Positions 1-46,247 of a stretch of DNA of 46,247 bases are shown here, one piece after another; position 1 is the first letter of the stretch; each line of letters opens with the position of its first letter. Position numbers and translations under genes: made by a program. The DNA comes from Microcoleus sp. FACHB-1515 (GTDB taxonomy: Bacteria; Cyanobacteriota; Cyanobacteriia; Elainellales; Elainellaceae). The stretch lies in assembly GCF_014696105.1 (NCBI RefSeq), contig NZ_JACJPO010000006.1, positions 1 to 46,247 on the forward strand, in the 5' to 3' direction. The notes under the pieces are model-generated. The model was not told where the DNA came from and did no database searches. It was given only the letters and a program-made list of their open reading frames with translations.

Positions 1-45
1 GGATTTGAACTGGGCGCTATGCTGCTTGCGTTTGTTTTGGCTCAT
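1..45 (-). CDS. IS3-family transposase OrfA, N-terminal fragment (runs off left edge)
   Basis: ATG at 45-43 begins MSQNKRKQHSAQFKS, a start typical of the helix-turn-helix OrfA proteins of IS3-family elements. An AGGAGT ribosome-binding site lies about 8 nt upstream. Only 15 codons are visible, so intactness and the frameshift to OrfB cannot be judged. Confidence 0.65.
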   Translation of the reverse strand, partial: MSQNKRKQHSAQFKS

Positions 46-113
46 AAACCACTCCTAGCATGGGTTGGAAGCGTGTAGCTTATTCACCTGTCCAGTTTTA
101 GGGTTCCACCTCA
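1..113 (-). mobile_element. IS3-family insertion sequence, left-truncated by the window edge
   Basis: Read leftward, this starts with a terminus of the form TGAGGTGGAACCC...ACTGGACA (113 down to 89), then a ~45-nt leader, a Shine-Dalgarno AGGAGT and the first 15 codons of an IS3-type OrfA. The terminus resembles the end of the IS3 remnant at 28885-28911 (both contain a TAGTTTTNGGGGTTC-like core), which supports calling it an IS end. It interrupts hsdM: the host reading frame runs into the IS and stops at its first bases (TGA at 113-111). The rest of the element lies outside the window. Confidence 0.75.
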
Positions 114-392
114 GAGGTCATTGCTGTAAGGGGCGGCCCAGTCGTGCCAGCGGTAGGGCGGTGCGATCGAGTAGCTGAAGGCTGATCCCACTGCTTCGGC
201 GTGTTCGGCTTCTTGCTGTTCTTGCTCGTCGAGGATGCGGAGGAAGAGTATCCAGGTGAGTTCGGGAACGTATTGTAAGGCTCCGGCGCAGTTGGAACGG
301 CGCATGATGTCACAGGCGGATTTGATGTATCCGTCGAGACTCTGCTGAGTGTTGAAGCTGCGTCCGTTGCTGTTTTTTGAGGCGCGTGGCAT
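111..392 (-). pseudogene. hsdM: Type I restriction-modification methyltransferase HsdM, truncated after ~92 residues
   Basis: The 93-residue frame matches the N-terminal helical domain of type I DNA methyltransferases: an opening of the form LDGYIKSACDIMR, then LTWILFLRILDEQE and APPYRWHDWAAPYS. The catalytic domain with the SAM-binding and NPPF/NPPY motifs is absent because an IS3-type element begins at about position 113. The ATG follows directly on the TAA of hsdS (TAAATG), so translation was coupled. HsdM is needed for both modification and HsdR activity, so the system should be inactive unless a second copy of hsdM exists or the insertion is not fixed in the population. Confidence 0.85.
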
Positions 393-1598: not shown

Positions 1599-1647
1599 TA
1601 CACTCACTCCTATCCCAGCCCAAATCAAACCTCAACAATTTTAGGAA

Positions 1648-2085
1648 TCAGTCGTTGACTTCACCACTTTTTAGCACTCCAGCGCGGATCAAGAGTTTTC
1701 GTTCCGACAATCGTTCCGCACGATTCATCTGCAACAGGCGCACCGTCACCCGTCCGATCGCGCTTAGCGGTTGAATCATTCCAGTATCGGCCTCAAGCTG
1801 AAAGTGATCGTGCCAGCGATCTTGGCGCGGATGATAGAGCCGCACAATCTCGCCAGTGGTGGGATCGATCGAGGCAATATCGCTGCCCTTCGCTAGATTG
1901 CACAGCGAACAGGATAACGCCAAATTTGCCGCACTCGTTTCACCGCCATGTTTCTCCGCAATTACATGATCGACCTGATGCGAAGCCAGCGTCAGCGCTT
2001 CTGGAATGAGGCAATACTCGCAGCTACCTTGAGCGCGATCGACCACTAAGCGCCGTAACTCAGCCATCACATAGGTTTTACTCAT
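1648..2085 (-). CDS. HNH endonuclease family protein
   Basis: The 145-residue protein carries an HNH/ββα-metal nuclease core: CEYC (about residues 22-25), HQVDHVIAEKHGG (about 36-48), then NLALSCSLCN. The two CxxC pairs probably bind structural zinc, and the DH/N residues form the metal site. This compact cyanobacterial HNH family usually stands alone and its role is not established. Its ATG overlaps the TGA of the next upstream gene by 4 nt (ATGA), so the two are probably co-translated. It sits between hsdR and hsdS within the type I locus, which suggests accessory or piggy-back cargo rather than a type I subunit. Confidence 0.85.
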   Translation of the reverse strand: MSKTYVMAELRRLVVDRAQGSCEYCLIPEALTLASHQVDHVIAEKHGGETSAANLALSCSLCNLAKGSDIASIDPTTGEIVRLYHPRQDRWHDHFQLEADTGMIQPLSAIGRVTVRLLQMNRAERLSERKLLIRAGVLKSGEVND

Positions 2086-2438
2086 GCCGCTGCATTCAGC
2101 TTCAGCAGCGCTTGCGCTTTCGCCAGCCGCACTAAATGTTCAACGAATTCGTAATGCTGCCACAGGCGTTGCTCAACAGGGGTTAAACCTTGCGATCGAT
2201 TCTTCTCCAGAAGCGCCTCAATTTCCGCCTGCACCGAGGCAGACAACCGCAACGCTAGGATCTCACTGGGATCTGGCAAACTGGCTAACAGTTCCAGAAT
2301 CTCCCGCAGCCCCGACAGGCCAGTGGCCGGATCTGCCGTCACTTCTCGCAAGCCCAACGCCAAAATTTCCGGCAGCTTGTCTTGCAGCGATCCTAACTGC
2401 TGGGCGAGGTCATCAGGAATTTCAACGGTGACTTGCAT
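2082..2438 (-). CDS. Hypothetical protein coupled to the HNH nuclease
   Basis: This 118-residue acidic, leucine-rich, largely helical protein opens MQVTVEIPDDLAQQLG, which resembles the short β-strand plus helix of small antitoxin-like proteins, and ends in a predicted helical segment (EQRLWQHYEFVEHLVRLAKAQALL). It overlaps the HNH gene start by 4 nt and starts 16 nt after the stop of hsdR, so all three look like one transcript. Nuclease-associated two-gene cassettes of this kind are frequent in cyanobacteria. Whether this one restrains, targets or simply accompanies the HNH protein cannot be told from sequence. Confidence 0.7.
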   Translation of the reverse strand: MQVTVEIPDDLAQQLGSLQDKLPEILALGLREVTADPATGLSGLREILELLASLPDPSEILALRLSASVQAEIEALLEKNRSQGLTPVEQRLWQHYEFVEHLVRLAKAQALLKLNAAA

Positions 2439-2453
2439 GGTGCGGCCTTTCCC

Positions 2454-4841
2454 CTACGTTGAGAACAATCTTACCTTCGTTTCTTGCAGCACACTGGCTG
2501 GCTTACCCAGCAGCTTCAGCGCATTTAAGCCACCCGATCGCACGATTTCCGGCACTTGAAACAGCCGCGCATCTTCTAGCCCGTCCGTGCCCGACAGCAC
2601 AAACTGCTGGGCGATCGCCTGCACCGTCCGCGCTGTTGGCGCTGGCATTCCCTGCAACCAGTCGGCTTGCTGCCTAGCAAACTCGGCAAAGCGAATCGTG
2701 CGCGTTTGGGGCGTGAGCTTGTAGCCCAACTGCCCCAGCACATCATACAGGTCATAATCTTGCATCTCGCGAATCAACTGAATCAGCTTGGGAGAACTGC
2801 CCGCCTGCACCAGTTGCGTCAATAATTCCCGTCGCTCATCGGGAACCACCCAGCGCGATCGAAATTCTCGCGGATTGGCCGCCACGCTCACGAGTCGATC
2901 GGCCAACTGCGCTTCATACTCGGCAACGGGCACGGGCATCGCCTGTCCGTCTACGGTCGCCAGCACAAACCGCCCTTCTGAAGTAATCTGCACATCGAAG
3001 CCTTCAACGGTGATGATTTTAGGGGGATCAGGGGCATCGATCGGGATGTCTGGTAGAGCATCTGGATCGGCAGGAGCAGCAGGGCGAACGGGTGACAGTT
3101 TGGTTAAGAACGACTGCCCAAACAGGCGCGTGGCGTTCGTGTAGTCGTACAGCCGAAACATCAGCTTTTCCGTTGCCGCATCTAGTCGCGTTCCGCGTCC
3201 AACCATCTGATAGAACGTGATTGGCGACTGCATATATTTGAAAAACACCACGTTCCGCAAGCTGGGCACATCCACGCCCGTCGAAAGCAAATCTACCGTT
3301 GTCGCAATAAAGAAATTGCGGTTGCTGCCTTTCAAGTCAGCCAAATAATCTTTTCCGCCACTTTCCGCCGTGCATTTGAAGGCGTAGTTGGCGACCGGGC
3401 GCTGTCCCTGCTCGCGACACCACCGAGCGTAGAGGTTATTGAGTTCGATCGCGACCGCATCGGCATGAAGATCGCGCACACAGAAAACGATCGTCTTCTG
3501 CTCTGGCGTTCCGGTTTGCAGCAGATAGTTAAACAAGTCCTGGCACATCGCCAAGACGCGATCGGGCAGCAAAATTCGATTCTCAAATGCTGTGTGTTCA
3601 TACAAGTCGCGCAGTTCTGCCTCGCTCACGGGTTGCCCCGTGCGAGCGTCAGTCGGCTGGCGAGCGAGAATCTGATCGATCGTGATTCCCGTATCGTCCA
3701 GGTTGACGCGGCTGCGCTGAATTTCACAGGCGGCGAGATAGCCATCCTCAATGCCCTGCGCGATGTCGTACTCATACACTGGCTCGCCAAAATAGCGCCG
3801 ATTGTCAGCGGTAATTTGCTGATCGCGCTGAGCTTCAATGCTGTCCTCGCTCAATTCCAGTTCGCGGGGCGTAGCCGTTAAGCCAATTTGGACGGCTTGG
3901 GCGTTGCGCGTTAGCACTTGCGACCACTTGCCCCAGGCCGATCGATGGCACTCGTCGATGATGATGTGGCTGAAGTAGTTTTCAGGGTAGTTTTGGGTGA
4001 GGAAGTTGGCCGTATCGTCCTCATTGGCGACATCGAGCGTTTGATAGGTGGCGATCAAGATGCGGGCGTTCTTCTGAGCGTTGCTAGCTGAAACGGTCGC
4101 GGCGTTCGCGCCAAACACATTTTGAAACGCGCCTGCTGCTTGCAACCGCAACTCGTCGCGATCGCACACAAATAGCGCCCGCGTCATTTGCCCCGCATCG
4201 GCAATCCGCTGAAGCAAATTGACAGCAATAAAGGTTTTGCCTGCCCCCGTTGCCAAAGTCAGCAGGACGCGCCCCGGTTCCCCACGAGCTTGACACTGGG
4301 CAATCTTTTCGAGGGCGGCGCGGATGGCGGCATCTTGGTAATAGCGCCGCGTTGCCTCACCACCCGCATAGCGAGTCAGCAGCGGTTTGGCGATCGGATC
4401 TTCGAGACTAAAGCCAATGGCCTGCTCATAGCGCGATCGCAAGTCGATCGGGGAGGGAAAGCGGCTGAGCGGCTGGGGTTTGCTGGTGAGTCCGGTTGTG
4501 CGATCGAACTCGACAAACAAGTGCCCATTGGTGCTGAACACAAACGGCACGTTAAATCGGTTGCACAGCGTATAGCCTTTGGCCTGCTCTAGCCCATGAC
4601 CAGGCGGCAGATGTTCTGCCTTGGCTTCCACCAACGCCACTGCGACGGGCTGCGTTTCTGCCCCGACTTGAATTCGCAACGTATAATCTAGCCGCCCGCG
4701 TCGTTGCTTGCGAGCTTTGCCGCCAACAATTGCAATGCTGCCAGCGGTTTCTTCGCGCTTAATGTAGTCTTCAATCCAGCCGCGATCGTGCAGGGCTGGG
4801 TCAATCAGCTTGGCTCTGGTGTCCGCTTCATTCAATCCCAT
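2454..4841 (-). CDS. hsdR: Type I restriction enzyme endonuclease/translocase subunit HsdR
   Basis: The 795-residue subunit carries both activities. The N-terminal PD-(D/E)XK nuclease shows RLDYTL (D52) and VEAKAE (E72, K74). An SF2 translocase follows, with Walker A ATGAGKT (about 197-203), DECH box (about 296-299), the GLTATP motif III, and YQMVGRGTRL as motif VI. The C-terminus has an EcoEI-type helical region. HsdR binds HsdM2S, pumps DNA and cuts at a distance when unmodified sites are met. The ATG at 4841 gives MGLNEADTRAKLID, the usual family start; a TTG at 4865 is possible but less likely. First gene of the leftward restriction operon. With hsdM disrupted it should have no functional complex to join. 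Confidence 0.93.
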   Translation of the reverse strand: MGLNEADTRAKLIDPALHDRGWIEDYIKREETAGSIAIVGGKARKQRRGRLDYTLRIQVGAETQPVAVALVEAKAEHLPPGHGLEQAKGYTLCNRFNVPFVFSTNGHLFVEFDRTTGLTSKPQPLSRFPSPIDLRSRYEQAIGFSLEDPIAKPLLTRYAGGEATRRYYQDAAIRAALEKIAQCQARGEPGRVLLTLATGAGKTFIAVNLLQRIADAGQMTRALFVCDRDELRLQAAGAFQNVFGANAATVSASNAQKNARILIATYQTLDVANEDDTANFLTQNYPENYFSHIIIDECHRSAWGKWSQVLTRNAQAVQIGLTATPRELELSEDSIEAQRDQQITADNRRYFGEPVYEYDIAQGIEDGYLAACEIQRSRVNLDDTGITIDQILARQPTDARTGQPVSEAELRDLYEHTAFENRILLPDRVLAMCQDLFNYLLQTGTPEQKTIVFCVRDLHADAVAIELNNLYARWCREQGQRPVANYAFKCTAESGGKDYLADLKGSNRNFFIATTVDLLSTGVDVPSLRNVVFFKYMQSPITFYQMVGRGTRLDAATEKLMFRLYDYTNATRLFGQSFLTKLSPVRPAAPADPDALPDIPIDAPDPPKIITVEGFDVQITSEGRFVLATVDGQAMPVPVAEYEAQLADRLVSVAANPREFRSRWVVPDERRELLTQLVQAGSSPKLIQLIREMQDYDLYDVLGQLGYKLTPQTRTIRFAEFARQQADWLQGMPAPTARTVQAIAQQFVLSGTDGLEDARLFQVPEIVRSGGLNALKLLGKPASVLQETKVRLFST

Positions 4842-4883
4842 ACAGTCCGCTCGCTCTAACCGCAACTGAGTGACTCATCAGCC

Positions 4884-18970: not shown

Positions 18971-19513
18971 ATGCCGCAATTACCGCTATTCGAGGATGCA
19001 ACTCAAACGCATCCGCCCGCCCGATCGATCGCCCGCCCCAAATCGCCGCGATCGCCCCGCCCGAAACGTCCGCCACAGCAGCCGCTACTCGCATCAACCG
19101 CCGCGACTGTACCATCGATTCCGGCTCCGATTGACCCTGAGAGCGATCACGACAGCTTGGCTAACCGCGCAGCGGCAAGCGATCGCTCGCTTCCGCCCGC
19201 TCCAACTCCAGCCAAAGAATTGCCTCCTGGCCGGATTGACCCGACTGATCCTGCTTTCAACTACCTGAAAAATTGCCGCCTGTGCGGTGCGCCGATCGAG
19301 ATTGGGGGACTCGATCACTCCCTCTGCTCCGCTGACTGTGGCTGGGTTGTTGATCTTCAATGGCTGGCACGGATGGAGGCACACAGGCGTAAGCGCAAAG
19401 AGCCAGAGCCACAGGCCGCGACGCACACGGATCGCGGCGACAGTGAAGCGCTCGACTTGTTCAGCAATAACCTCGATCGCGACACCTCTGACATGGATGG
19501 AGGTGTGGCATGA
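18971..19513 (+). CDS. Small zinc-finger protein coupled to the replication gene
   Basis: The 180-residue protein has a long Pro/Arg/Ala-rich disordered first ~90 residues, then a treble-clef-like zinc motif CRLCGAPIEIGG...CSADCGW (two Cys pairs), then a basic helix (RMEAHRRKRKEPEP) and an acidic tail. AAGGAC lies 7 nt before the ATG. Its stop overlaps the ATG of the replication protein (ATGA), so it is cotranslated with it and probably has a DNA-binding or loading role in plasmid replication. Confidence 0.75.
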   Translation: MPQLPLFEDATQTHPPARSIARPKSPRSPRPKRPPQQPLLASTAATVPSIPAPIDPESDHDSLANRAAASDRSLPPAPTPAKELPPGRIDPTDPAFNYLKNCRLCGAPIEIGGLDHSLCSADCGWVVDLQWLARMEAHRRKRKEPEPQAATHTDRGDSEALDLFSNNLDRDTSDMDGGVA

Positions 19514-22500
19514 GCATCGTTCTCCGCAAACCACCTGCACCCGCAGCACTGCCCTTTGAGCAACGCATCGAACAGGAATTCATTGTCGGCAGTGGGATCG
19601 CCCTTGACCTGTATGCCGCCACGATCGACTTTCTGGAAGACACTGGACGCTGGGAAGTCCATGAAGCCCTGGGGCTGGACGTGCGTCCCCAGTGGCAGAC
19701 CCGCAAGCCGCATGATTTTGGAGTACTAGCCTGCCTGCGAAACGAAGATGACACGCTTTGGCAAGGCAAACCCGAACGTCCGATCGTCAACGCCAAAGGC
19801 AAGCCACAGAAATATCAATCCGTCGCGGGTGCTGGCTCACGGGCATTTTTGCCACACATTCCCGCCTCGATTCGCCGCAAGATCGCAGAACGCTACCAAG
19901 TTGAAGTCCCGTTGGTAGGGTCATTTTGGGAGTGGTTAGCGCAGCACCCAGAAATCCCCATCCTCTTCACTGAGGGCGGCAAAAAGGCGCTATCACTGCT
20001 GGGTTTGGGCTATGTAGCGATCGCGCTCTATGGCGTGAATGGCGGCTATCTCAAGTGCAAGGTCACAGGCGATCGATCGCTGATCCCAGACGTAGCTCGA
20101 TTTGCCCTCACAGGCCGACCCATCACCTTAGCCTTCGACCAGGACACCGACTCGAAAACGCAAGCGCGGGTCAACGTTGCCCTATGGCGATTTGGTGGCC
20201 TGCTCCAAGCGGCGGGCTGTGAGGTGGCGATCGCCCGCTGGGATGGAGCGCAGGGCAAAGGCGTAGACGATCTGATTGTTCATCAGGGAGCAGCGGCCTT
20301 CGATCGCCTCTACCAGGATGCGCTACCGCTCCAGCACTGGCAGCTATGGCAGCGACTAGAGCAGCGCTTGACCCATCCTGCTGCCCTCCGCATTCACCAG
20401 GCCGATCTTGCCAAGCTGGAAATTGCCCACCTGCCACAATCGGGCATCATCGGCATTGCTGCCGCGAAAGGCACAGGCAAAACTAAGCTGATTGCCAGCA
20501 CCATCAAACTGAGTGAATCCGTGTTGAGTGCAGGCCACCGCATCGCCCTGATGCGAAATCTGTGCGAGCGCTTGGGACTACGCTATCGGGGCGATCTCGA
20601 TCGCGCTGGGGGACGCTTCATCGACGAGTCGGGCTACGCCCTGCGAATCGGCTTCTGTGTTGATGCACTGATGGCGATCGACCCTGAGCAATTCAAGAAT
20701 TGCGATCTAATCATTGATGAAGTCGTGCAAGTCTTGCGGCATCTGCTCACCAGTTCCACCTGCAACAAAGACGGAATGCGCCCCTTACTGCTGGCGCGAT
20801 TTGCCGCGCTGGTGCGATCGGCGCGGCGCGTGATTGTGGCCGATGCCGACCTCGATAACGCCACACTGCACTACTTGCAGCAGTTGCGGGGCGAGGGGGA
20901 TAATTCCGTCTTCCTCATTCGCAACGACTACCAGCCTCAAGGCTATGCAGTGCGCTATGTCGAGTCGCGTGATTCCAGTCCGGCGATCGCATCTCTGCTG
21001 ACCGATGTGGGCAAGCTTGCACCCGGTAAAGTCCTGTTTGTCAGCACGGACAGCTTGAGGAAAAGCCAGCACTTGGCAAACTTGATTGAGAAAGCGTATC
21101 CCAGCAAGTGCATCCTGGTGCTGAACTCCCACACCAGCAACGGCAGTGCCGAGCAAGCCTTCATCAAAACACCCGATGCCGAACTGCACCACTACGATGT
21201 GGTGATCGCCTCGCCCACGCTAGGTACTGGTGCGAGCATCGAAGCCCAGGGCGTAATCGATCGCGTCTACGGCCTCTTTAGCGGCGGCTCCTCCACTGAT
21301 GCAGATATGGCGCAAGCGCTGGGCAGAGTGCGCGAACCTGTGCCTCGCATTGTCTGGTGTGCCAAACGCGGCAGCAACTTCAGCAAGGTCAGCCGATCGA
21401 CGAGCAGCCTTGAACTCAAGAGCCAGTTGCAGCAGAAGACCAGCATTGCCGCGAGCTTGGTCAAGCTGAGTTTGAGTGATGCCGCTTCGGATGCGATCGA
21501 CGCTTTCGACTGGAAGGGCGATGCTCACTTAAATTTGTGGTGTCACTTCGCCGCTGAGCAAAACCGCTCAATGCTCAACCTGCGAGATGCCTTGCTGGTG
21601 CGACTGCGGCAGGAAGGGCACATCGTTGAGGTGGAATCAGCCGAACCGGATGCGGCCATGAAATTGCGCCTCAAGGCAACTAGCGCCGAACTCAAGCAGT
21701 TTGAGGCCGAAGCCAAAGCCAACGCTGATGAACTTACTTACGCCGAGATCAAGCTGCTGGAGGCCAAAGAGTCACCCACGCCGGCTGAGAAACAGGCGAT
21801 CGACAATTTCCACATTCGCGACTTCTACTGCTTGGACTCACTCACAGTGGAGGACGTAACAAACGACAAAGACGGTAGATATCGGGGGGAACTGCTCAAT
21901 CTCGAAGCCGCGCTGTTTCCCGATACAGCACTTGATCGCACGGCACGGGCACTGGAAAAACAGGCAAGCTGGAACCAAGGCTTGTGCCCCTGGGATCTCC
22001 CCGATACTGCCCTGCGGCAAGCAATTCGGGTCAAGTTGGGACTGCTCAAATATATTGATGCCGATCGCACCTGGACGAAGTACGATTTGGCCGCTGATGC
22101 CGATCGAGCACGGCAGATGGCAGGGCAAATCAAAACGGTGCTGCATCTGACCATCACGCCCAAGATGAGTGACGTGCAAATCATTCACCAGTTGCTTAGC
22201 CAGATGGGGCTAAAGGTCAGCTTTGGCTGGAGCCGGGCGATCGCGGGGCATGAGGGCGAAAAGCTGCGAGTCTATCGACTCGATGCGAGTCGTTACGAGC
22301 AGGCGATCGGCATTTTACACAGGCGGCAGGAGCGACGCGAGACGCAGCAACCGCAGACAGAAGACGAGGGCGGATCACCCATGCCTTCTATCTCTACACC
22401 ACACACGGAAGATCCAGAACCACCAGAAGCCCCAACACAGGAAAAGTGGGCATCCGAGGCGGATTTGGCCGATGTGCGCGTGTGGTTGGCAGCAGCAAAA

Positions 22501-22578
22501 GCTGATCCCAGCGATGAATCGGTGCAGCAATTGCTCAGTCTCGTTCCGCCCGATGTGATTGCGCGGGCGATCGGATAG
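19510..22578 (+). CDS. CyRepA1-family plasmid replication protein (TOPRIM primase-like plus helicase)
   Basis: The 1022-residue protein has the two-module layout of cyanobacterial plasmid initiators. The N-terminal DUF3854/TOPRIM-like domain shows ILFTEGGKKALSLLGLGYVA (E155), YGVNGGY and ITLAFDQDTD (D210). A P-loop helicase-like ATPase follows with AAAKGTGKTKL (317-327) and DLIIDEVVQVLRHLL (D403, E404), then VVIASPTLGTGASIE and a QALGRVRE arginine-finger-like motif. The last ~350 residues are helical and less conserved. It marks the window as a plasmid; an origin would be expected nearby, with structured DNA on both sides (18833-18878 and 22911-22930). Confidence 0.85.
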   Translation: MSIVLRKPPAPAALPFEQRIEQEFIVGSGIALDLYAATIDFLEDTGRWEVHEALGLDVRPQWQTRKPHDFGVLACLRNEDDTLWQGKPERPIVNAKGKPQKYQSVAGAGSRAFLPHIPASIRRKIAERYQVEVPLVGSFWEWLAQHPEIPILFTEGGKKALSLLGLGYVAIALYGVNGGYLKCKVTGDRSLIPDVARFALTGRPITLAFDQDTDSKTQARVNVALWRFGGLLQAAGCEVAIARWDGAQGKGVDDLIVHQGAAAFDRLYQDALPLQHWQLWQRLEQRLTHPAALRIHQADLAKLEIAHLPQSGIIGIAAAKGTGKTKLIASTIKLSESVLSAGHRIALMRNLCERLGLRYRGDLDRAGGRFIDESGYALRIGFCVDALMAIDPEQFKNCDLIIDEVVQVLRHLLTSSTCNKDGMRPLLLARFAALVRSARRVIVADADLDNATLHYLQQLRGEGDNSVFLIRNDYQPQGYAVRYVESRDSSPAIASLLTDVGKLAPGKVLFVSTDSLRKSQHLANLIEKAYPSKCILVLNSHTSNGSAEQAFIKTPDAELHHYDVVIASPTLGTGASIEAQGVIDRVYGLFSGGSSTDADMAQALGRVREPVPRIVWCAKRGSNFSKVSRSTSSLELKSQLQQKTSIAASLVKLSLSDAASDAIDAFDWKGDAHLNLWCHFAAEQNRSMLNLRDALLVRLRQEGHIVEVESAEPDAAMKLRLKATSAELKQFEAEAKANADELTYAEIKLLEAKESPTPAEKQAIDNFHIRDFYCLDSLTVEDVTNDKDGRYRGELLNLEAALFPDTALDRTARALEKQASWNQGLCPWDLPDTALRQAIRVKLGLLKYIDADRTWTKYDLAADADRARQMAGQIKTVLHLTITPKMSDVQIIHQLLSQMGLKVSFGWSRAIAGHEGEKLRVYRLDASRYEQAIGILHRRQERRETQQPQTEDEGGSPMPSISTPHTEDPEPPEAPTQEKWASEADLADVRVWLAAAKADPSDESVQQLLSLVPPDVIARAIG

Positions 22579-33848: not shown

Positions 33849-36800
33849 TCAGGGGACATTACAAATTCGACGAGTTTCTGATGTGCCTTCTAAGGCGATC
33901 GAAGGACGCAGCCAGCGGCAAGCCTGCTCAATTAATTCGTTTAAGTCGCGAATTGCATAGTGTTTTGGTGTGTTGTTTGCAGAAATCACGACAATACTTC
34001 TACCGTCTGCGCTGAGTGACATCGCATAGCCTTCATACTGAGCAATTTGATTACCTCTGCCATCCCACACGCGAATTTGACGATCGCCTCCCAGCGCCGC
34101 AATTCGCTGCCCATCCTGACTAATTTGTACGGCATTCGCTTGAACCGAAGTCGGAATAAACCAGCCTCGTCGTCCGCTCAGCGTGGCAGTTTCACCGCTA
34201 AGATTCCACAAAAAAGCGCGATCGTCAGCAGCAGAAACAAATTGATTCATTTGATTGGTAAACGTAAAGCGAGCCAAATCGGAAAAAGTTGCGCCGTCCG
34301 CAAATCGATCGCCACGAATTTCATCAACGGGATTGCCCTGTAAGTCCCAAGTTCGCACGGCTGCACCAGCATCGGTGGGAGCGATCGTGATCAACTGCTT
34401 TCCATTGGCGGTGAAGTACACCTGATCAACCCACTTTGAATTCGCTTGAAAGTTTGCCAACAGTTGTCCTTGCAAATTCCAGATTTGCACTTTTCCCTGC
34501 CCGCCAGCAGTTGCTAGAAGTTGACTATTGGGGCTGAAAGCAATCGATTGCACTTTGCCCGAAATTGGAGAAGTTACTGCAACTTTTTCTCCAGTCGTTG
34601 TCCAAATTTGGATCGCATTATTCGGCTGAAGGGTTGCCACATACCGCCCATTCGGGCTGATTGGGTTGCTCCAGGTGAGGGGATTTTGCCAATCTTCGCC
34701 CCATGTTCCAGAAAGCTTCGCGATCGCCTCTCCCTGTGAATTCCAAACAGTTACGATTCTGTTCTCACCGCTATGCGTCAAGAGATATTCTCCTGATGTG
34801 TTAAATCGCAAATTATCGATTCCAGATTCACTCAACGGCAGTGACAAATTGCCTTGAGTTCGAGAATTCCACATTTCTACTGTGGCATCATTCAGTAACG
34901 CGGCAAATGATTCTCCATCCGGATTTATTTGCACTGTAGAAACGCGCTGAGAAATCGGAAGATAATATGTTCCAGGCGTTTCCAAATGCAGAAGCGTTGT
35001 GTCAGCAAGAGCGATCGTTTTACTATCAGGACTGAACTCTAGCTTATATTCAGAGCCTCGAAATCTCGATTCGGTAACCTGCTGTCCAGCAAGATTCCAG
35101 ACTCGCACCCGATCGTCCCAGTTCTGCGTTGCGGTATCGCTGCCGATCGTCGCCAGTTTTTGACCATCGGGACTGATGGCAACCGCATAAATTCCGCCCG
35201 AATGCGCTTGAAATTCGCGGATTAAACTGCCCTGATGATCATAGAGGCGCAGTTTACCATCCTCTGAGCCGATCGCCATGAACTGACCATCGGGACTGAT
35301 TTGAGCATCGATCGTGCCCTGCGATCGAGTTTCCAGTGATCTCATGACCCTGCCATTCAAATCACACTGCGTTACTGTAGCGGTTCCTGCTTGAGCAGTA
35401 ATCATCAAGACGGATGGCCTATCTGGACTGAAACGAGCTTTGAGGACTTGACCCTGCCCCTGACAAGTCGCAACAGCTTGACCCTGATTGTTCCAAAGTT
35501 TCACCTGACGATCGCCACCTGTAAGCAAATACTTTCCATCTAAACTGAACTCAGTGATTAATGACTGATGATTTAATGTGGCAATTTGTGTTCCTTGATC
35601 ATTCCAAAGTTTTGTAATTTGCCGTTCCCAGGTTGCATTATTGCGATGAGCAGCATCGACAACCGGTTCGATTGTGGCCAACAAACGACCATCCGGACTG
35701 AAGGCAATTCCCAAGACGGGCATTTGCAAATTTGAAAAGGTGGCGATCGCCCTACCCGCAGTACTCCACAGCGTCGCCGTGCCGTCCGATTCAACTGCTA
35801 AAAAACGCTCTCCATCCGGACTCAGAGCAACTTTTTCAGCCGTTCCTGACTGCTGAAATTGATGAATGAATTGTCCTTCCATATCTAAAATTTTGTAGTC
35901 AGTGCGATCAGGTTGCGTAGACCCTGTATGAAACAATATTCGTCCACCATTTGCAGCAAAAGGACGCGCAGTTGTATTGCTGGTTGCGCCGATCGATTGT
36001 TCTTGAACGCGATCGAGTACCGACTGCAATGTTAGAATCGGGGTGACTGTTGCATAATTTGCATTACTTGCTTGCTGTAAGTTATGTGCTGCTATTAATG
36101 CAGAAATTAATGCTTCACTGGGCTGATAGGAAAACTGATCGAGGGCACTGGTACTCATGCGCTCTGCTTGACCAATCAGCGCGGCGCGGTGCAGCGATCG
36201 AGTTGACCAAACGGTAATGCCTGAAGCTGCCAGCAGTGCAGCCGCTAAAATTCCTGCTCCCAAGCACAGCCGTCGCTGTGCAATTTGATTCGCTTTGGCA
36301 AGAATTTCGTTGGCGCGTTTCGTTTCCTGGTTTTCAAACTGCTGACTGAGCGATAGAAATTCAGCATCCTGCTGACTCAAGGTTTTATCGCTTGCCCAGG
36401 CGAGTGCTTCTTCTAAACTTTGTCCGCGCAAAAGGCGAGAGCGGTCTTGTTTTCCAGAGGCAAGCCATGCAGCTAAGGCATCGGCGTAAGGACGAAGGTT
36501 GTTGAACATTGTTTCTACCCATTGAAGATTAAAAACTTCGGCATAAATTAAGTTTCGGACTGCCAAACCATTTTCTTGTTTGACGACTAGCCCTGATAGG
36601 CGCAGTTTTAACTGGGATGAGCTTTCATCGGAAATTACGGATTTCTGCTGCAAAATTTGCTGATAGATACCTAACAGTCGGCTGGTTTGTTTTTCGTGGC
36701 GAAGCAGGCGATCGCGAATCGTTCGTAAATGCTCTGGCTCATCTTGAGTTTCCCAATGTTGAATCAGATGGGTGTGGATCAGGTGAGCGATTTTAGCTTT

Positions 36801-37592
36801 TAAATTTTGGTGGTGATGGGGCGATGAGTGCCAATATTCGATGACTAGACGGCAAACCTTTTGCGTCAGAAAAGGCTGTCCGCCTGTCCAATCTAGAATT
36901 TCTTGAAGGGCAATTTGCGGTTCTGCGATCGCGCCAGCTAAGCCTTCAGCCAGAACCGTTGCTTCTTCATATTGAAAGCCGTTAAGCGCGATCGCTTGAC
37001 CGACATTAAAAGGGGTGCGGGTTTTATCTTGAATCAAATCAGAAGGAGTGGCAACACCCAGTAGGCAAAACGTCAGCGCCTTCACATCGTCTCGATCGTT
37101 TGCATAAGAACGAATTAACGCAAAAAAGTCATTGATTGCAAATTCAAGGCTGAGAACGCTATCAATTTCGTCAATGAAAATAACGATCGGCTGATTGGCG
37201 AAATGCAGTAAAAGTACATCCTCAATAAATGTACTGAGTAGATGAATATGAGTCAGAGAGGGAGGAGCGTTCAACCAGGCTTTCAAATTGACTTTGCCAA
37301 TTAAATTCGCGCTGCGCCATAGTTCTGAAACGACTCGTTCATACCACTGTTGCGGAGTTAGATGCTCACTTCCCACTCGCGTCATATCGATCGCAATACA
37401 GCAAACTCCTTCCATTTGCAAACGGTGCATCACGCGAACTCGCAAACTCGATTTGCCCATTTGCCGACAGTTAAACACATAGCAAAACTGTCCTGCTTTT
37501 AATGCAGCATAGAGTTCTTGATCTGCTTGTCGTTCGACGTAGCTGGGAGCATCAATCCTTAAACTTCCCCCAACCTGATATTCGTAACTCAT
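33849..37592 (-). CDS. AAA-like ATPase fused to a WD40 propeller
   Basis: The 1247-residue protein has an AAA-like (AAA_35-type) ATPase at its N-terminus (YEYQVGGSLRIDAPSYVERQ, P-loop NCRQMGKSSL, Walker B PIVIFIDEIDSV, sensor-like FCLLGVATPSDL). A transmembrane segment follows around 440 (LGAGILAAALLAASGITVW), then about a dozen WD40 blades of the form SPDGxxLAT...VRVWNxxGQ filling the C-terminal ~650 residues. Such cyanobacterial AAA-WD40 proteins act as signalling or conflict sensors. ATG 37592 follows an in-frame TTG. A second AAA-like protein of the same family is encoded at 40172-41350. Confidence 0.9.
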   Translation of the reverse strand: MSYEYQVGGSLRIDAPSYVERQADQELYAALKAGQFCYVFNCRQMGKSSLRVRVMHRLQMEGVCCIAIDMTRVGSEHLTPQQWYERVVSELWRSANLIGKVNLKAWLNAPPSLTHIHLLSTFIEDVLLLHFANQPIVIFIDEIDSVLSLEFAINDFFALIRSYANDRDDVKALTFCLLGVATPSDLIQDKTRTPFNVGQAIALNGFQYEEATVLAEGLAGAIAEPQIALQEILDWTGGQPFLTQKVCRLVIEYWHSSPHHHQNLKAKIAHLIHTHLIQHWETQDEPEHLRTIRDRLLRHEKQTSRLLGIYQQILQQKSVISDESSSQLKLRLSGLVVKQENGLAVRNLIYAEVFNLQWVETMFNNLRPYADALAAWLASGKQDRSRLLRGQSLEEALAWASDKTLSQQDAEFLSLSQQFENQETKRANEILAKANQIAQRRLCLGAGILAAALLAASGITVWSTRSLHRAALIGQAERMSTSALDQFSYQPSEALISALIAAHNLQQASNANYATVTPILTLQSVLDRVQEQSIGATSNTTARPFAANGGRILFHTGSTQPDRTDYKILDMEGQFIHQFQQSGTAEKVALSPDGERFLAVESDGTATLWSTAGRAIATFSNLQMPVLGIAFSPDGRLLATIEPVVDAAHRNNATWERQITKLWNDQGTQIATLNHQSLITEFSLDGKYLLTGGDRQVKLWNNQGQAVATCQGQGQVLKARFSPDRPSVLMITAQAGTATVTQCDLNGRVMRSLETRSQGTIDAQISPDGQFMAIGSEDGKLRLYDHQGSLIREFQAHSGGIYAVAISPDGQKLATIGSDTATQNWDDRVRVWNLAGQQVTESRFRGSEYKLEFSPDSKTIALADTTLLHLETPGTYYLPISQRVSTVQINPDGESFAALLNDATVEMWNSRTQGNLSLPLSESGIDNLRFNTSGEYLLTHSGENRIVTVWNSQGEAIAKLSGTWGEDWQNPLTWSNPISPNGRYVATLQPNNAIQIWTTTGEKVAVTSPISGKVQSIAFSPNSQLLATAGGQGKVQIWNLQGQLLANFQANSKWVDQVYFTANGKQLITIAPTDAGAAVRTWDLQGNPVDEIRGDRFADGATFSDLARFTFTNQMNQFVSAADDRAFLWNLSGETATLSGRRGWFIPTSVQANAVQISQDGQRIAALGGDRQIRVWDGRGNQIAQYEGYAMSLSADGRSIVVISANNTPKHYAIRDLNELIEQACRWLRPSIALEGTSETRRICNVP

Positions 37593-37831
37593 CAAAACAC
37601 GAGTGGGATAATATCTATGACTATTTCACTGTAGATGAAAGGTAAACCAACCGATGAATCTGTGTAGAAGAATGCACAGTGTTGCGGTTTTGTTCCCGGA
37701 AATAGCGAATTCGGTGAAAAGGCCGTGTGATCATTTTTCTGCACAAACCCATCTCTTTCAAATCATGTCGCTAAGCTGGAAACCTCAGCTTCAAACGTGA
37801 AGTCACATCCTGAAAAACCTGGATTGAAATC

Positions 37832-39001: not shown

Positions 39002-40188
39002 GTGGAAAAGCTTTCTGTCCTTCATCCTCTTGTCCTCATTTTGCTGAGTTTATGTGCAGGTTTATCCGCGTGTCAACCGAACAACATTACCTCATCCACT
39101 CCGTCTGCTGAAACGACTCCATCTTCAGATTTCCAGAAGGCATCACTCACCACGATCGCTCACTTTCAAGGTGACAACGGCGGCAACCCGTTAGGAGTAG
39201 TTCAGGCGAGCGACGGCAACTTTTACGGCATCACCGAAGGCGGACGAATTGGCCCCGGAGTCATCTTTCGCCTCACGCCGGACGGCCAGATTCAGCCGAT
39301 CGTGCATCTGCATGGCGAAACTCAAGGCTACAACCCGGAGGCAGAGCTAATTTTGGGGCGCGATGGCAATTTGTACGGCACAACTTCGGGCGGTGGTGCA
39401 AATGGGCAGGGGTTCGGCACGGTCTTTCGCGTCACCACAGCCGGACAACTGACGACCTTAGCGGTGTTCGATCGCAAAAACGGCGCTAGTCCTCAGCGTC
39501 CTCTCATTCAAGCGCAGGACGGCAATTTCTACGGTACAACCTACATGAGCGGCGACCATGAGCAAGGCACAATTTTTCGGCTAACGCCTGCCGGAGAACT
39601 CACGACTCTGGTTCACTTCAAGGTCGATCGATTTCCAGGGGCACTCGATATCATTCAGGATCGATCGGGCAATTTTACGTGACGCACGGCAATTTTTACG
39701 GCACACAATACATGGCAGATGGCGAAGCAACAATTTTTCGCCTCACCAATCACCAAACGTTGATTCCATTTGCTCAATTTGTAGGGCTAAATGACAACCC
39801 CAGCCGCGATGCCTATCCGAGTCGCCTCGTAGAAGCGCAGGACGGCAACTTCTACGGCGTGACGCTGTTCGGCAACTTCTTTCGTTTAACGCCGGATGGA
39901 CAAAAGACGACGATCGCCACCCTCGATCGCAACTTTTTGTTTAACCGCCTGATTCAGGGCAGCGACGGCAACTTTTACGGCACAGCGATCGGACCAGAAC
40001 CCCCCGACCCCGGCATGGTTTTTCGCCTCACACCTCAGGGAGAACTTACTCCGCTCGGCTACTTCACCGGAGGCAACGGCAGCCAGCCCAACAGCCTAAT
40101 TGAAATTGAGGGCACATTCTACGGCACAACGTTAATGGGCGGCAAACACAATCAGGGAACTATATTTAAGCTCACGATCGATCGCTAA
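39002..40188 (+). pseudogene. GloVer-repeat lipoprotein, split by a frameshift
   Basis: Starts at GTG 39002 with a lipobox (CAGLSAC) and carries the glycine-rich tandem repeats of GloVer/choice-of-anchor proteins: repeated SDGNFYGxTxxGG...GTIFRLTPxG units. At 39680-39682 the frame meets TGA (ends GNFT), and a second frame beginning with GTG at 39679 continues the same repeat pattern (HGNFYGT...AEATIFRLT...) to 40188. The identical repeat register on both sides shows one gene of about 395 codons with a short indel. The GTGA overlap could in principle let a ribosome re-initiate, so some product may still be made. A sequencing error is also possible. Confidence 0.75.
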
Positions 40189-41350
40189 AATACCGACGAT
40201 ACAGTTCACAGCTTAGCCTGACTTGATTGCCATCCAGTCTTGCCAGCCCGGAACTCTCCAGCCTGTAGGCCAGAATCGGATCGAGACTGGTTCCCTGCGG
40301 CTCGTTGGCAATCACGCGATCGAGGGCGATTTGTAGTTCTAAATAGTTTTGCAAAACCTGCCAGTGACGCCGCAGATGATCGCGATAAATTCCGGCTTGA
40401 GTTGGAGCCGTTCGCAGTAGTTCTTCCAGCGTCATTCCTTGTTGCAGATGATAAAACGCCAACTGCAAAAGATACGGATGCCCCCCGACCATTGCAACGA
40501 TTTGCTGGATTGCTGCTGCTGAACCGTTCCAACCATAGTGTTTTGCTAACTGCTGGATTTGATCGATCGTCAGTTCCGATAAGCGAATCGGCAATCCGAC
40601 ATTAAAAGGCGATTGATTCAAATTGAGCGGTAGATAAACTTCAGTAGAATGAGCGACGACCAATCGTAATCGCTGCCAAACCTGTAGATTGTTTGCCTCT
40701 TCGTGCCAGCTTCGCAGCAATGCAAAAAATCCCTGTGCGATTTGCGGAAATTCAAATAGCCAGTCTACTTCATCCAATCCCAAAACTAAATTCTGATGCA
40801 GTTGCTCTAAAAGACAGAACTGAAAAGAAGTCGTGCAGCTTACCAGGCTTCCAAACCGATCGCTATCCCAGTAATCTTCAATCTGAACGGATAAATTCAG
40901 CTTGCGGATAAGATTGATGCAAAACCATCGCAAAAATGTATCTAAATCCGTCAAGACTGCTGCTTCTGCCTGCCGCAAATTCAGCCGCACCGTTGCAAAA
41001 TTCATCTCGTTGGCTCCTGCTAAAATTCGATGCAGAAGCGACGTTTTACCCATATGTTGCGGGGCGCGAATTCGCACTAAGCCGCCCGGTTTGCGAATTT
41101 CTTGAAGACACTGTTTTTCGATCGGCGGACGCTCAACATAAAGCGGCGATTTTAGCGTTAGTGGACTACCCGGAAATTCTATAGCGGATTTTCCCTGACC
41201 CACTAATTGCGGATGAACCAGTTCCGATCGATGCTGAGCAAACAGGTCAACGAGTTCTTCCCGGTAGGAGTAATGTTCGCCTTCAATGTTGCTGAATCCA
41301 AACGCTTTGCAAACGTTAGCAATATGACGACGAATGGTGGAAGGTTCCAA
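40172..41350 (-). CDS. AAA-like ATPase with winged-helix-type N-terminus, probably 5'-truncated
   Basis: The 392-residue protein begins at a TTG (41350) with EPSTIRRHIANVCKAFGFSN, the recognition half of a LuxR/vMap-type helix-turn-helix. An AAA-like (AAA_35-type) ATPase follows: LVRIRAPQHMGKTSLLHRIL (P-loop), VLGLDEVDWLF (Walker B), VVAHSTEVYLPL and GGHPYLLQLAFYHLQQG. A stop codon (TAG) lies directly upstream in frame, and the expected first half of the helix-turn-helix is missing, so the gene may have lost its start. It is a relative of the AAA-WD40 protein at 33849-37592. Confidence 0.75.
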   Translation of the reverse strand: MEPSTIRRHIANVCKAFGFSNIEGEHYSYREELVDLFAQHRSELVHPQLVGQGKSAIEFPGSPLTLKSPLYVERPPIEKQCLQEIRKPGGLVRIRAPQHMGKTSLLHRILAGANEMNFATVRLNLRQAEAAVLTDLDTFLRWFCINLIRKLNLSVQIEDYWDSDRFGSLVSCTTSFQFCLLEQLHQNLVLGLDEVDWLFEFPQIAQGFFALLRSWHEEANNLQVWQRLRLVVAHSTEVYLPLNLNQSPFNVGLPIRLSELTIDQIQQLAKHYGWNGSAAAIQQIVAMVGGHPYLLQLAFYHLQQGMTLEELLRTAPTQAGIYRDHLRRHWQVLQNYLELQIALDRVIANEPQGTSLDPILAYRLESSGLARLDGNQVRLSCELYRRYFSDRS

Positions 41351-43347: not shown

Positions 43348-43680
43348 GTGAGGCCAAATTTGACCTGAAATTCGGGTCGCCAGTAGGGTGATCGCCGCGC
43401 TGATTGCGATTGAATTGTAACGAAAGATGCGATGCAGGGACAAAGGCGCGGATTGGGGCGATTTCTGAGCCGACTTTACAATCGATCGCCGGCTCCAACG
43501 CGCTGGCAAGGGTGCAAAGCCGCCTGAGCCAATGGCACGGCCCCAGCGCTCCCACTGAGACTAGTGTGAATCGGGACTGTGCCACACCTTGACGCAGCAA
43601 TTGGATTGCTTCGCACTAAGCAATCCAATTGCTGCATGAATTGCTTAATTGGATTGGGGCAGCGTTGCGGGTCTGGAGCG
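43348..43680. other. Intergenic region between transposase and protelomerase genes
   Basis: The two genes converge here. Apart from the inverted repeat at 43594-43635 and an adjacent ATTGCTTAAT copy at 43640-43649, I see no coding sequence. The right end of the IS4 element must lie in the left part, but no matching terminal repeat was identified. Confidence 0.5.
43594..43635. repeat. Perfect 18-bp inverted repeat carrying the subtelomeric motif
   Basis: GCAGCAATTGGATTGCTT (43594-43611) and its exact complement (43618-43635) flank CGCACT. It sits between two convergent genes, so it can act as a bidirectional RNA-end hairpin, though no T-run follows. The arms hold AATTG and ATTGCTT words also found at the telomere-like right end, and a third copy of the word follows at 43640-43649. 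Confidence 0.65.
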
Positions 43681-45627
43681 TCAATCTTGACCTGTCCCCT
43701 TGCCCGATCGCAGGGATTGCTGCACCTGTGCGAGTGTGATTTTTTCGCGGTAGCTGCTGTTGTGCCCAGGCTGAATGTGCAGTTGGTGGTGGTGTTGATC
43801 GATCGCCTGTTGCTGCTGCTCCAAAATGCGGTTGATTAAGCGCTGGTTGGGCGTGAGTGCCTTGAGAAAATTGGCTGTAATCTCGCGCTTGAGCTTGTGG
43901 GGTTGCTGTGTTTGGTCGATATACAGGTTGTAGTGTTGAATGTCGTCGATCGCCTGGAGAATTTGCTGTGTGAGGGCAGCGGTGGCAGTGGCCTTTTCTG
44001 GCGACTTCGAGCGGCTGGGTTGACGTTGAGTGCGGGCGGCGGTGGCGCTCGTCGCTGCTTCTGTGTCCGGTTTGGGTGGACGATCGCTTGCCACTGTGCC
44101 ACTGTGCGGCGCGGGGTCAGGGCGCAAGGTGTCCGCAACCGGCGATGGCGCAAGGCCATGATCCCCTGTGGGTGTGGCGCTGAGCTGCGTGTGCGTTTGC
44201 ATCAACGCCTGAAACATCGCCAGGGTTTGAGTAAACATCGACTTGAGTTCGTCCACCTCAGCGGCTGGGGCTTGCACCTGTGGGGGCGGCGCGGCGATCG
44301 TCGTCGGCTCAGTGGGTCGTGGATCGGGCGTGGTTGCGGGTGTGACGATCGCCGTTTGCTCGGCGGCATCGGATGCAGCGGATTGGGGTGGCGCGACCGT
44401 TTCGAGTGTTTCCAGTGACCAATGCAACCAGCGGGACATGGCGGCGATTTTGGCTTCTGTTGTGTCGGTTGGGCCAAAATGCGATAGCACTTGCTGGACG
44501 AGATTTTCCTCTTGGTAATTGATCCACACGCTCTTTCTGGGTGTGCGCTTGCTTTTGCTGGATTGGGGAGCGGCGGAGTGGGACATGGCTTGCGGTTGCA
44601 AAGTGGAGCGGGCTTCCGGTGGTGCGGGTGCTGCTGTGGCGTCAGGTCGCTGGAAGCGGGCGATCGGTTGGATGCCGCCGTGCCCTAGCTTGATGCCCTT
44701 GCGCTTGCCCCCGGCTTGAGCAATGACCGCATCCGCGATCTCATAGTCGGCATAGTGACGCGAAGCGGTGAGCGATCGCCGCAGCGTCGGATCAGTTTCG
44801 TCTAAAACGGCATAGTGGCCTTGAATCGCCGCCTTGTACTCGGTCGGCTCCACCCAGGACGGGCAATACCAAAAGGTGGCGATCGTCGCGTAGACGGCGC
44901 GAAACAAGTGGGTGTAGAGGTTGTCTTGCCCTCTGGGTGGAACCAGCCCCGCGAAGTGACGCTCGCAGGCTTGCACCACGCGATCGCCGTACTTGCGGTT
45001 AATCTCTTCCGGCGTCAGAGCAACCGCATCGGGCAGTTGCTGACGTAGCTTTGCTAGGGCCGCAATGACGCGATCGGCAGTGGTGAGCGTGGGAATCTCA
45101 AAGCTGAGGATTTGCCGCTCGCCCCGCCGTTTGAGTGCCCCGGTGAACCGCACACTCCACTGGCTCGCCTTCTCAAACTGAGCGGTTGCCAGAATCTCAC
45201 TCGATCGCCGTCCGGTCAGGACGGCCAGCGCTGCGGCGAGGTCAAACCAATGCGGTGAGTCCTCGATCAGCGCAACGGCTTTTGCCACGATCGCATCCGG
45301 TTGGTCAATTTGTTTCACGTCCTCATTGCGATCGGCAGTGCGTTGCAACTTCTGGTTATTGAGTTCGGTGTATTCCTCTGTGGTCAGGCCAAAATATTTC
45401 AAGGCAAAATGGTCAGCCCCAAACTTGGCTTTGATTTGGCTGCGGGTTTGGTCAAACAACGGCTGAAGCTGAGAGATCTGGGTGAAATGGCGATCGACCC
45501 AGGATTGGCGAAGCTGTGCGGCTAAGTCGATCGCTTGCTGATGTCCCGCTTCGGAGTCGGGCAACTGGGCGATCGCGGGCAAGAATTCATTGGCAAGCTG
45601 AGTATTGAGCCAGGTGCGTTTACCCAT
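43681..45627 (-). CDS. Protelomerase (telomere resolvase), ResT/TelK/TelA-like
   Basis: The 648-residue protein has a tyrosine-recombinase core typical of telomere resolvases: GRRSSEI (R141, E144), FTGALKRRGE (K166), THLFRAVYATIATFW (H240, R243), YKAAIQGHYAV (H271) and SRHYADYEI, with Y292 or Y295 the candidate nucleophile. The N-terminus (1-130) is helical. From about 330 there is a long Pro/Ala/Gln/Thr-rich linker, then a basic C-terminal domain ending KITLAQVQQSLRSGKGTGQD. Resolvases cut a replicated palindrome and reseal each end as a hairpin. The gene reads leftward, away from the terminal palindrome at 46195-46247, and its upstream region carries repeated ATTGCTTA words, so it may also bind there to regulate itself. 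No strong ribosome-binding site is seen. Confidence 0.85.
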   Translation of the reverse strand: MGKRTWLNTQLANEFLPAIAQLPDSEAGHQQAIDLAAQLRQSWVDRHFTQISQLQPLFDQTRSQIKAKFGADHFALKYFGLTTEEYTELNNQKLQRTADRNEDVKQIDQPDAIVAKAVALIEDSPHWFDLAAALAVLTGRRSSEILATAQFEKASQWSVRFTGALKRRGERQILSFEIPTLTTADRVIAALAKLRQQLPDAVALTPEEINRKYGDRVVQACERHFAGLVPPRGQDNLYTHLFRAVYATIATFWYCPSWVEPTEYKAAIQGHYAVLDETDPTLRRSLTASRHYADYEIADAVIAQAGGKRKGIKLGHGGIQPIARFQRPDATAAPAPPEARSTLQPQAMSHSAAPQSSKSKRTPRKSVWINYQEENLVQQVLSHFGPTDTTEAKIAAMSRWLHWSLETLETVAPPQSAASDAAEQTAIVTPATTPDPRPTEPTTIAAPPPQVQAPAAEVDELKSMFTQTLAMFQALMQTHTQLSATPTGDHGLAPSPVADTLRPDPAPHSGTVASDRPPKPDTEAATSATAARTQRQPSRSKSPEKATATAALTQQILQAIDDIQHYNLYIDQTQQPHKLKREITANFLKALTPNQRLINRILEQQQQAIDQHHHQLHIQPGHNSSYREKITLAQVQQSLRSGKGTGQD

Positions 45628-45683
45628 GATTCAATGAAGGTGAGCGTGGATCAGTGGAGCGGTCTACTGCGTTGAGCTAACTG

Positions 45684-46182
45684 TATTGTATCGCTTATTG
45701 TATTGGTTGTTGATATGAATTGCTACTGGTCTATCCCTTCGCATTGTTTGGCTAGGGCGATGGCTCAATTGCTGCGATCGTTACCGTGCAATGGATTTGG
45801 CTTGCGAGAACAGAATCGTCGCCGCCGCGCACAGGCAATCGATCAGGGTCTGGCGGCAAACACTCAATCGATACAAATTGCTTATAGAACTCGAAATGAA
45901 GCAATCCAAAATAGTGAACTAGATGAGCAGATTGTATCGACTAGCCGCAATTGTATTGCATATTTGAATTATTTAATACAAATTGCTAATCATTTGAATT
46001 GCTTAGTGCTTTGGGTTAAGCGGTGCGGTCGAACCTAAAAATGGCTGAAAGCCGCTCTGTGTATAGATTTGAGCGATTATTGCAAGTAGTGGAAAGTACC
46101 CTAAAAGCGCTAGAGAGCGATCGTGCAAGCAATACAATAATAAGTAATTCAAATAGAGGTTAAATGATACAAATTGCTTATA
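45684..46182. repeat. Subtelomeric ATTGCTTA-type repeats
   Basis: GATACAAATTGCTTATA occurs exactly twice, at 45870-45886 and 46166-46182. Related words include ATACAAATTGCTAAT (45976-45990), TTTGAATTGCTTAG (45993-46006) and, near 45684-45704, a TTGTATCGCTTATTGTATTG run; inverted forms such as AAGCAAT occur near 46120. A frame of 111 codons at 45703-46038 is built from these words and is not considered a gene. They resemble protein-binding iterons between a resolvase gene and its likely telomere. Confidence 0.7.
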
Positions 46183-46194
46183 AGCGATCGGGAG

Positions 46195-46247
46195 TTGACG
46201 TATTGCTTAATAGGATGTTCAGAACATCCTATTAAGCAATACGTCAA
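46195..46247. repeat. Terminal 53-base inverted repeat, candidate hairpin telomere
   Basis: The left arm 46195-46220 and the right arm 46222-46247 are perfect inverted complements of 26 bases each, with a lone A at 46221 as centre. The inner ten bases on each side read TAGGATGTTC and GAACATCCTA, the outer parts contain ATTGCTTAAT (46202-46211) and its complement (46231-46240). The repeat ends exactly on the last base of the window, so the true arm may be longer. It lies 568 bp upstream of a protelomerase gene. Known resolvase targets are palindromes of about this length. Confidence 0.8.

Follow-up and report, generated by a model that had tools for sequence, protein, structure and literature searches.

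Among the closest described systems to our locus are plasmids of Nostoc N6, for three of which covalently closed hairpins were inferred from reads in 2018, according to the available part of that report (PMC5987646). In this strain pNPM8, pNPM9 and pNPM10 carry protelomerases, and its plasmids resemble ours in having a cyanobacterial protelomerase gene; theirs have inferred closed hairpins and terminal inverted repeats. Hence the preliminary description of our locus, according to which no characterised hairpin-ended linear plasmid was known in cyanobacteria, overstated its novelty. The accessible portions of other papers list two linear plasmids in Nostoc ATCC 53789 (PMC7118181), treat the large plasmids of Cyanothece 7822 as linear (PMC4320622) and name cyanobacteria among the bearers of hairpin telomeres (PMC3558466). 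Outside this phylum, the linear chromid of Agrobacterium and linear plasmids of Rhizobiaceae have a palindromic target, with hairpin ends on the plasmids, in the available text of PMC13293297. PMC3558466, in the same partial form, gives an even central six for the targets of TelA (TCATGA, cut 6 bp apart) and TelK (CGCGCG), and says that a distance of 6 bp between the cuts holds for all known protelomerases.

The window, that is the whole stretch of DNA that was analysed, is the entire contig C56 (46,247 bases) of the Microcoleus sp. FACHB-1515 draft (96 contigs, 5.79 Mb), so the palindrome at its right edge sits at a true contig end. This terminal palindrome (46195..46247, no strand assigned) consists of the arms 46195-46220 and 46222-46247, which are 100% complementary (26+1+26 nt) around A46221 and include the last base of the contig; the arm length is a lower bound, since the contig stops at 46247. 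The chance expectation for such a repeat in the window is about 1e-11, and the first 20 nt of the arm have no other exact match in the genome. Folding of the terminal 53 nt as DNA predicts 25 base pairs with a triloop of CAG or CTG. A palindromic tip adjoining a protelomerase gene, as in a hairpin-ended linear plasmid, was found at the right end of the contig. In our view this edge is very probably a hairpin telomere, covalently closed, that belongs to a linear cyanobacterial plasmid and was formed by the resolvase encoded next to it; the covalent closure and the cutting by this enzyme are both what we infer. The sequence would then have been read around the hairpin, with the true tip near 46221.

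The tip reads GTTC-A-GAAC, with the core TTC-A-GAA at 46218..46224 (no strand), and the even-length dyad of characterised protelomerase sites is absent because the centre is a single A. This sets it apart from the TelA target and, among TelK, TelN and ResT, from that of TelK, which alone of these three our site comparison covers. It also differs from the Nostoc N6 telomere AAATTAACRGAC, which it does not match and which is taken to have an even dyad, the same tip lying in an even palindrome of contig G078:C53. Plasmids pNPM8 and pNPM10 begin with AAATTAACAGAC and AAATTAACGGAC, the latter published end being contained in the G078:C53 tip, and their enzymes belong to a clade other than that of the window resolvase. 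The preliminary description had recorded a perfect 53-base repeat with 26-base arms ending on the last base, and a protelomerase homologue beginning 568 bp inside it, both of which hold in full; it had also seen the central A, but passed over the oddness of the dyad, which is the unusual feature.

The telomere resolvase (protelomerase) gene lies at 43681..45627 on the minus strand and reads away from the tip, its start lying 568 nt inward of the palindrome, at a distance of 594 nt to the palindrome centre. Its 648-aa product is a telomere resolvase as judged by domain, predicted fold and candidate active-site residues. PF16684 (ResT-TelK_cat) matches it with E 3.8e-30 and 105 bits against a cut-off of 27, and comparison with the TelA sequence, which has the same catalytic domain, gives E 9.5e-8. 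The predicted structure has a mean pLDDT of 74.7, reaching at least 90 in 21 of the first 33 ten-residue blocks. Unlike TelA, the window protein has a linker, long and modelled with low confidence, and an additional C-terminal part. All of the top eight fold matches of this model are entries of Agrobacterium TelA (Z 23.2), TelK of phage phiKO2 (18.0) and Borrelia ResT (13.9), followed by the next fold at 8.8. The likeness to TelK and ResT lies in the catalytic fold, whereas phiKO2 and N15 represent a phage setting and Borrelia a spirochaete setting, unlike the window. R140, R141, K166, H240, R243, H271 and Y292 are invariant in 24 sequences, and the candidate active site comprises R140 or R141 together with K166, H240, R243, H271 and Y292. 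The corresponding TelA set is Arg255, Lys286, Tyr363, Arg366, His394 and Tyr405 in the available text of PMC3558466; the mapping follows the TelA alignment up to the His, while His240 and Tyr292 were assigned by motif, position and invariance. According to the HxxR motif, His240 probably stands where TelA has Tyr363.

It is improbable that the replicon is linear and hairpin-ended but resolved by another protelomerase of the cell, with the adjacent gene inactive or acting elsewhere. Such a separation of gene and target has a parallel in Agrobacterium biovar 1, where the accessible part of PMC13293297 places the gene on a different replicon. However, the single full-length protelomerase found in the FACHB-1515 genome is the window gene itself, which is complete and keeps the conserved residues. 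Contig C45 holds a second, broken copy (L034, 1102-2353) with a 152-aa open frame, and in C8 the match is weak and confined to the C-terminal part of the protein.

Chimeric reads can produce terminal inverted repeats, and an inverted chimera at the contig end would be an artefact of assembly or library with no biological hairpin behind it. We regard this as very unlikely for our palindrome. Among 47 contig ends examined (the assembly has 192), the right end of C56 is the only one with a terminal palindrome of arms of at least 6 nt, and the TTC-W-GAA core recurs at the ends of resolvase-bearing contigs in separately assembled genomes. In support of the hairpin reading, 30 pairs of contig ends in the same assembly have common suffixes of 113-116 nt, which suggests an assembler k near 113. 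At this k a 53-nt palindrome in unique flanks should not halt assembly, and hence presumably nothing unique lies beyond it.

The claim of the preliminary description that the right edge is the tip of a linear replicon, read partly around a hairpin, is well supported by relatives. Odd centres were found in six replicons including the window, five of which, all from the clade of the window resolvase, have TTC-W-GAA. Chroococcus sp. FPU101 (22+1+22) and G412:C4 (16+1+16) both have contig-terminal palindromes with GTTC-W-GAAC; they also have arm sequence in common, and may therefore not be independent. The palindrome ending a contig of Leptolyngbya sp. FACHB-8 (11+1+11) has ATTC-W-GAAT. Contig G518:C4 (45,320 bp) is 100% identical to the Leptolyngbya boryana plasmid pLBY in both end regions, which were the parts compared, and continues beyond them by 425 and 526 nt. 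It has the core at both ends: its right end is the odd palindrome GTAAGTTC-T-GAACTTAC, and its left end, which begins C-A-GAACTTAC, reaches one base beyond the same centre. Together the two ends make up an inverted repeat, with 79.8% over 890 aligned columns. In the sixth replicon, G027, the centre TTATC-A-GATAA lies in a perfect mirror of 2x3,079 nt with a resolvase gene in each arm. The resolvase gene reads away from the tip in all six, at 307 nt (G027), 594 nt (window) and about 1.0-1.3 kb (up to about 1,294 nt; FPU101, G412, FACHB-8 and G518:C4) from it, where the distances for G412, FACHB-8 and G518 are taken to the start of the match. That FPU101, G412, FACHB-8 and G518:C4 repeat both the core of the tip and the orientation of the gene argues for a hairpin telomere, as do the inverted-repeat ends of G518:C4, the full mirror of G027 and plasmids of a related clade with even tips that were inferred from reads to be hairpin-ended.

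Under another reading the window comes from a circular plasmid with an intact, unresolved target site of the resolvase, and some relatives are indeed deposited circular (AP017309.1 and NZ_CP092421.1), a point counted against the hairpin. Protelomerase genes occur on the circular-deposited NIES-3755 plasmid1 and L. boryana IU 594 p2 (L026 and L028). Still, we give this explanation very little credence. The window contig stops inside the palindrome although the overlaps suggest k near 113, the circular-deposited relatives have no palindrome with arms of 11 nt or more in the stretches around the gene, and pLBY is deposited linear, its longer form ending in tips.

An AT-rich subtelomere (45628..46194, no strand) lies between the resolvase gene and the palindrome and contains many AAGCAAT/TTGCTTA words, which possibly form a resolvase-binding array. 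Counted on 45628-46221, AAGCAAT has 6 copies, against an expectation of 0.22 based on the remaining window sequence. FPU101, G412 and G518 contain the shorter word AGCAAT, but FACHB-8 does not; this is counted against the hairpin reading, and it makes the candidate binding sites a weak part of the case. The subtelomere also holds two plus-strand copies of a 17-nt direct repeat, GATACAAATTGCTTATA, at 45870..45886 and 46166..46182. Downstream of the resolvase gene, an inverted repeat with 18-nt arms and a 6-nt spacer (43594-43635) contains AAGCAAT as well. Although this second long inverted repeat shows that such structures occur elsewhere in the window, an ordinary DNA or RNA hairpin at the tip, such as a terminator or cruciform, can practically be dismissed in view of the contig-end position, the one-base spacer and the recurrence of the common core with a resolvase gene in other genera.

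The left end of the window (1..114, no strand) is a repeat at an assembly break, not a telomere. Its 114 nt also begin contig C10, and the first 22 of them occur once in C63 and at contig ends in C21, C62 and C92 as well. A second telomere was sought in the own genome with 120 nt of telomere sequence, at E values as high as 10, and with a gapped pattern of motifs, which returned only C56 itself and weak noise. This missing partner counts against the hairpin reading, and it may lie among the contig ends outside the 47 of 192 viewed directly. The two ends of the window have no mutual similarity in the stretches compared, and the same was found for pLBX and Cy782202.

That the contig is a plasmid is indicated by a gene (19510..22578, plus strand) for a CyRepA1-type plasmid replication protein with DUF3854 and a helicase-like region, whose best plasmid match is 52.5% identical. 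The preliminary description had suggested that CyRepA1 and resolvase together would be an undescribed replicon type, which was an overstatement, since Cy782202 of Gloeothece PCC 7822, which is deposited linear, also has a protelomerase gene and, at a distance of about 2.3 kb, one with DUF3854 (CyRepA1-type). Plasmid pLBY has a resolvase of the window's clade, but unlike the window it encodes a large central protein with a D5_N domain and no DUF3854 match, and has a second, partial resolvase-like stretch at its other end. Further genes of the window include Type I restriction specificity, HNH nuclease and ResIII/helicase (R-subunit-like) genes at the left end (393-4865), and two AAA_35-domain genes (33849-37595 and 40172-41350), one of which has a WD40 array.

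Against genome contigs, the window protein alone as query found no relative, while alignment A1 led to 34 loci; in viral contigs, 52 stretches matched a pattern with this alignment and none encoded a relative. Of the 386 genomes sampled from the phylum, 15 have PF16684. At E <=0.001 alignment A1 had a match in 99 of 388 genomes of the class, a figure that includes many weak matches to parts of the protein, was obtained from few scored candidates per genome and is not a clean count of the window clade. The majority of resolvase-bearing contigs end before reaching a tip. Terminal palindromes were present in 11 of the 96 contig-end rows tested, corresponding to 9 distinct ends; in the named set they were found at 3 of 24 ends on the 5′ side of the gene, including the C-centred one of L062, and at none of 18 on the 3′ side. 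That most gene-proximal contig ends of relatives have no palindrome is likewise counted against the hairpin reading. The terminal TGAGAATCATTCTCA of M33_DOE_097 (L062) was excluded as a telomere, its centre being C and its distance to the gene 9.4 kb. On contigs of at least 8 kb (25 loci, two of them on one contig), only the 5′ end of the gene lay within 1.5 kb of a contig end in 10 cases and only the 3′ end in 2 (sign test p 0.039); for all 34 loci the numbers were 12 and 5 (p 0.14). Gene position by itself lends weak support.

The palindromes that accompany resolvases of other clades, whether they end a contig or form the centre of a mirror, are even in G078 (two contigs), G501, G481, G444 and G455, and G585 is scaffolded across Ns at its mirror. 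In a tree of 46 proteins, chosen from a larger set of loci, one branch separates the six odd-tip rows from the eight even-tip rows with support of 98/89 and in 100% of 200 bootstrap trees, where pNPM8 and pNPM10 were called even by tip identity with G078:C53. The rows G078:C59, G042 and G127 (divergent) came from a separate extraction, and G280, G215 and Gv7822 have long branches.

Other contigs also resemble linear replicons. The 98,395-bp LUGL01000231.1 of Elainella saxicola (L073, L076) has an inward-reading resolvase gene at both ends and is perhaps a nearly complete linear plasmid. Contigs G444:C54 (L124), G455:C1 (L126) and G585:C72 (L125) are mirror images, each with a pair of resolvase genes, and look like hairpins that assemblers have read through; in G455 an ungapped comparison did not see the mirror at 18-20 kb from the centre. 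The genome G027 is one contig of 4.68 Mb (G027:C1; L032/L033) that starts with dnaA and has its mirror around 2,113,190. Among 34 sampled windows of this contig, GC skew is positive in 14 of 17 on the left and negative in 11 of 17 on the right (p 0.0012), the cumulative peak falls in a window beside the mirror, and the two windows touching the mirror show the sign opposite to that of their side. G027 is a candidate for a linear main chromosome with hairpin ends, which assembly would have joined into a single piece. For the window and pLBY, cumulative skew was too noisy to place an origin.

If the right edge is a hairpin telomere, replication would start inside the plasmid, probably near the CyRepA1-type gene, and would run around the hairpin to give a head-to-head duplex palindrome. 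The resolvase, with its predicted tyrosine-recombinase fold and its gene 0.6 kb inside, would bind this palindrome as a dimer and cut both strands in a staggered manner around A46221, and each 5′ overhang would then be folded back and rejoined to leave two hairpin ends. A symmetric cut of an odd dyad requires an odd stagger, most simply of 5 or 7 nt, and the loop would be a CWG triloop. Staggered cutting around an odd dyad should also yield, at each resolution, one product with A and one with T. The window and FPU101 have A as the central base read outward, and G412, FACHB-8 and both ends of G518:C4 have T.

Hairpin-ended cyanobacterial plasmids had already been inferred, and it is the odd-centred class of telomere that looks new. 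No odd-centred hairpin telomere and no hairpin-ended Leptolyngbya plasmid was recognised among the matches listed from the literature, mainly open-access with few subscription papers. We are evenly divided on whether cyanobacteria have a separate class of hairpin telomeres, with an odd dyad (mostly TTC-W-GAA), its own protelomerase clade, a stagger of 5 or 7 nt instead of 6, and one A-tipped and one T-tipped triloop end per replication, which would be spread over several genera and cap a linear main chromosome in G027. Such a dyad would test how fixed the 6-bp cut geometry is, and would give new pairs of enzyme and site with which closed linear DNA could be made. Linear replicons also seem to be under-recognised among cyanobacteria, given that several contigs and one single-contig genome resemble hairpin read-throughs assembled as internal mirrors.
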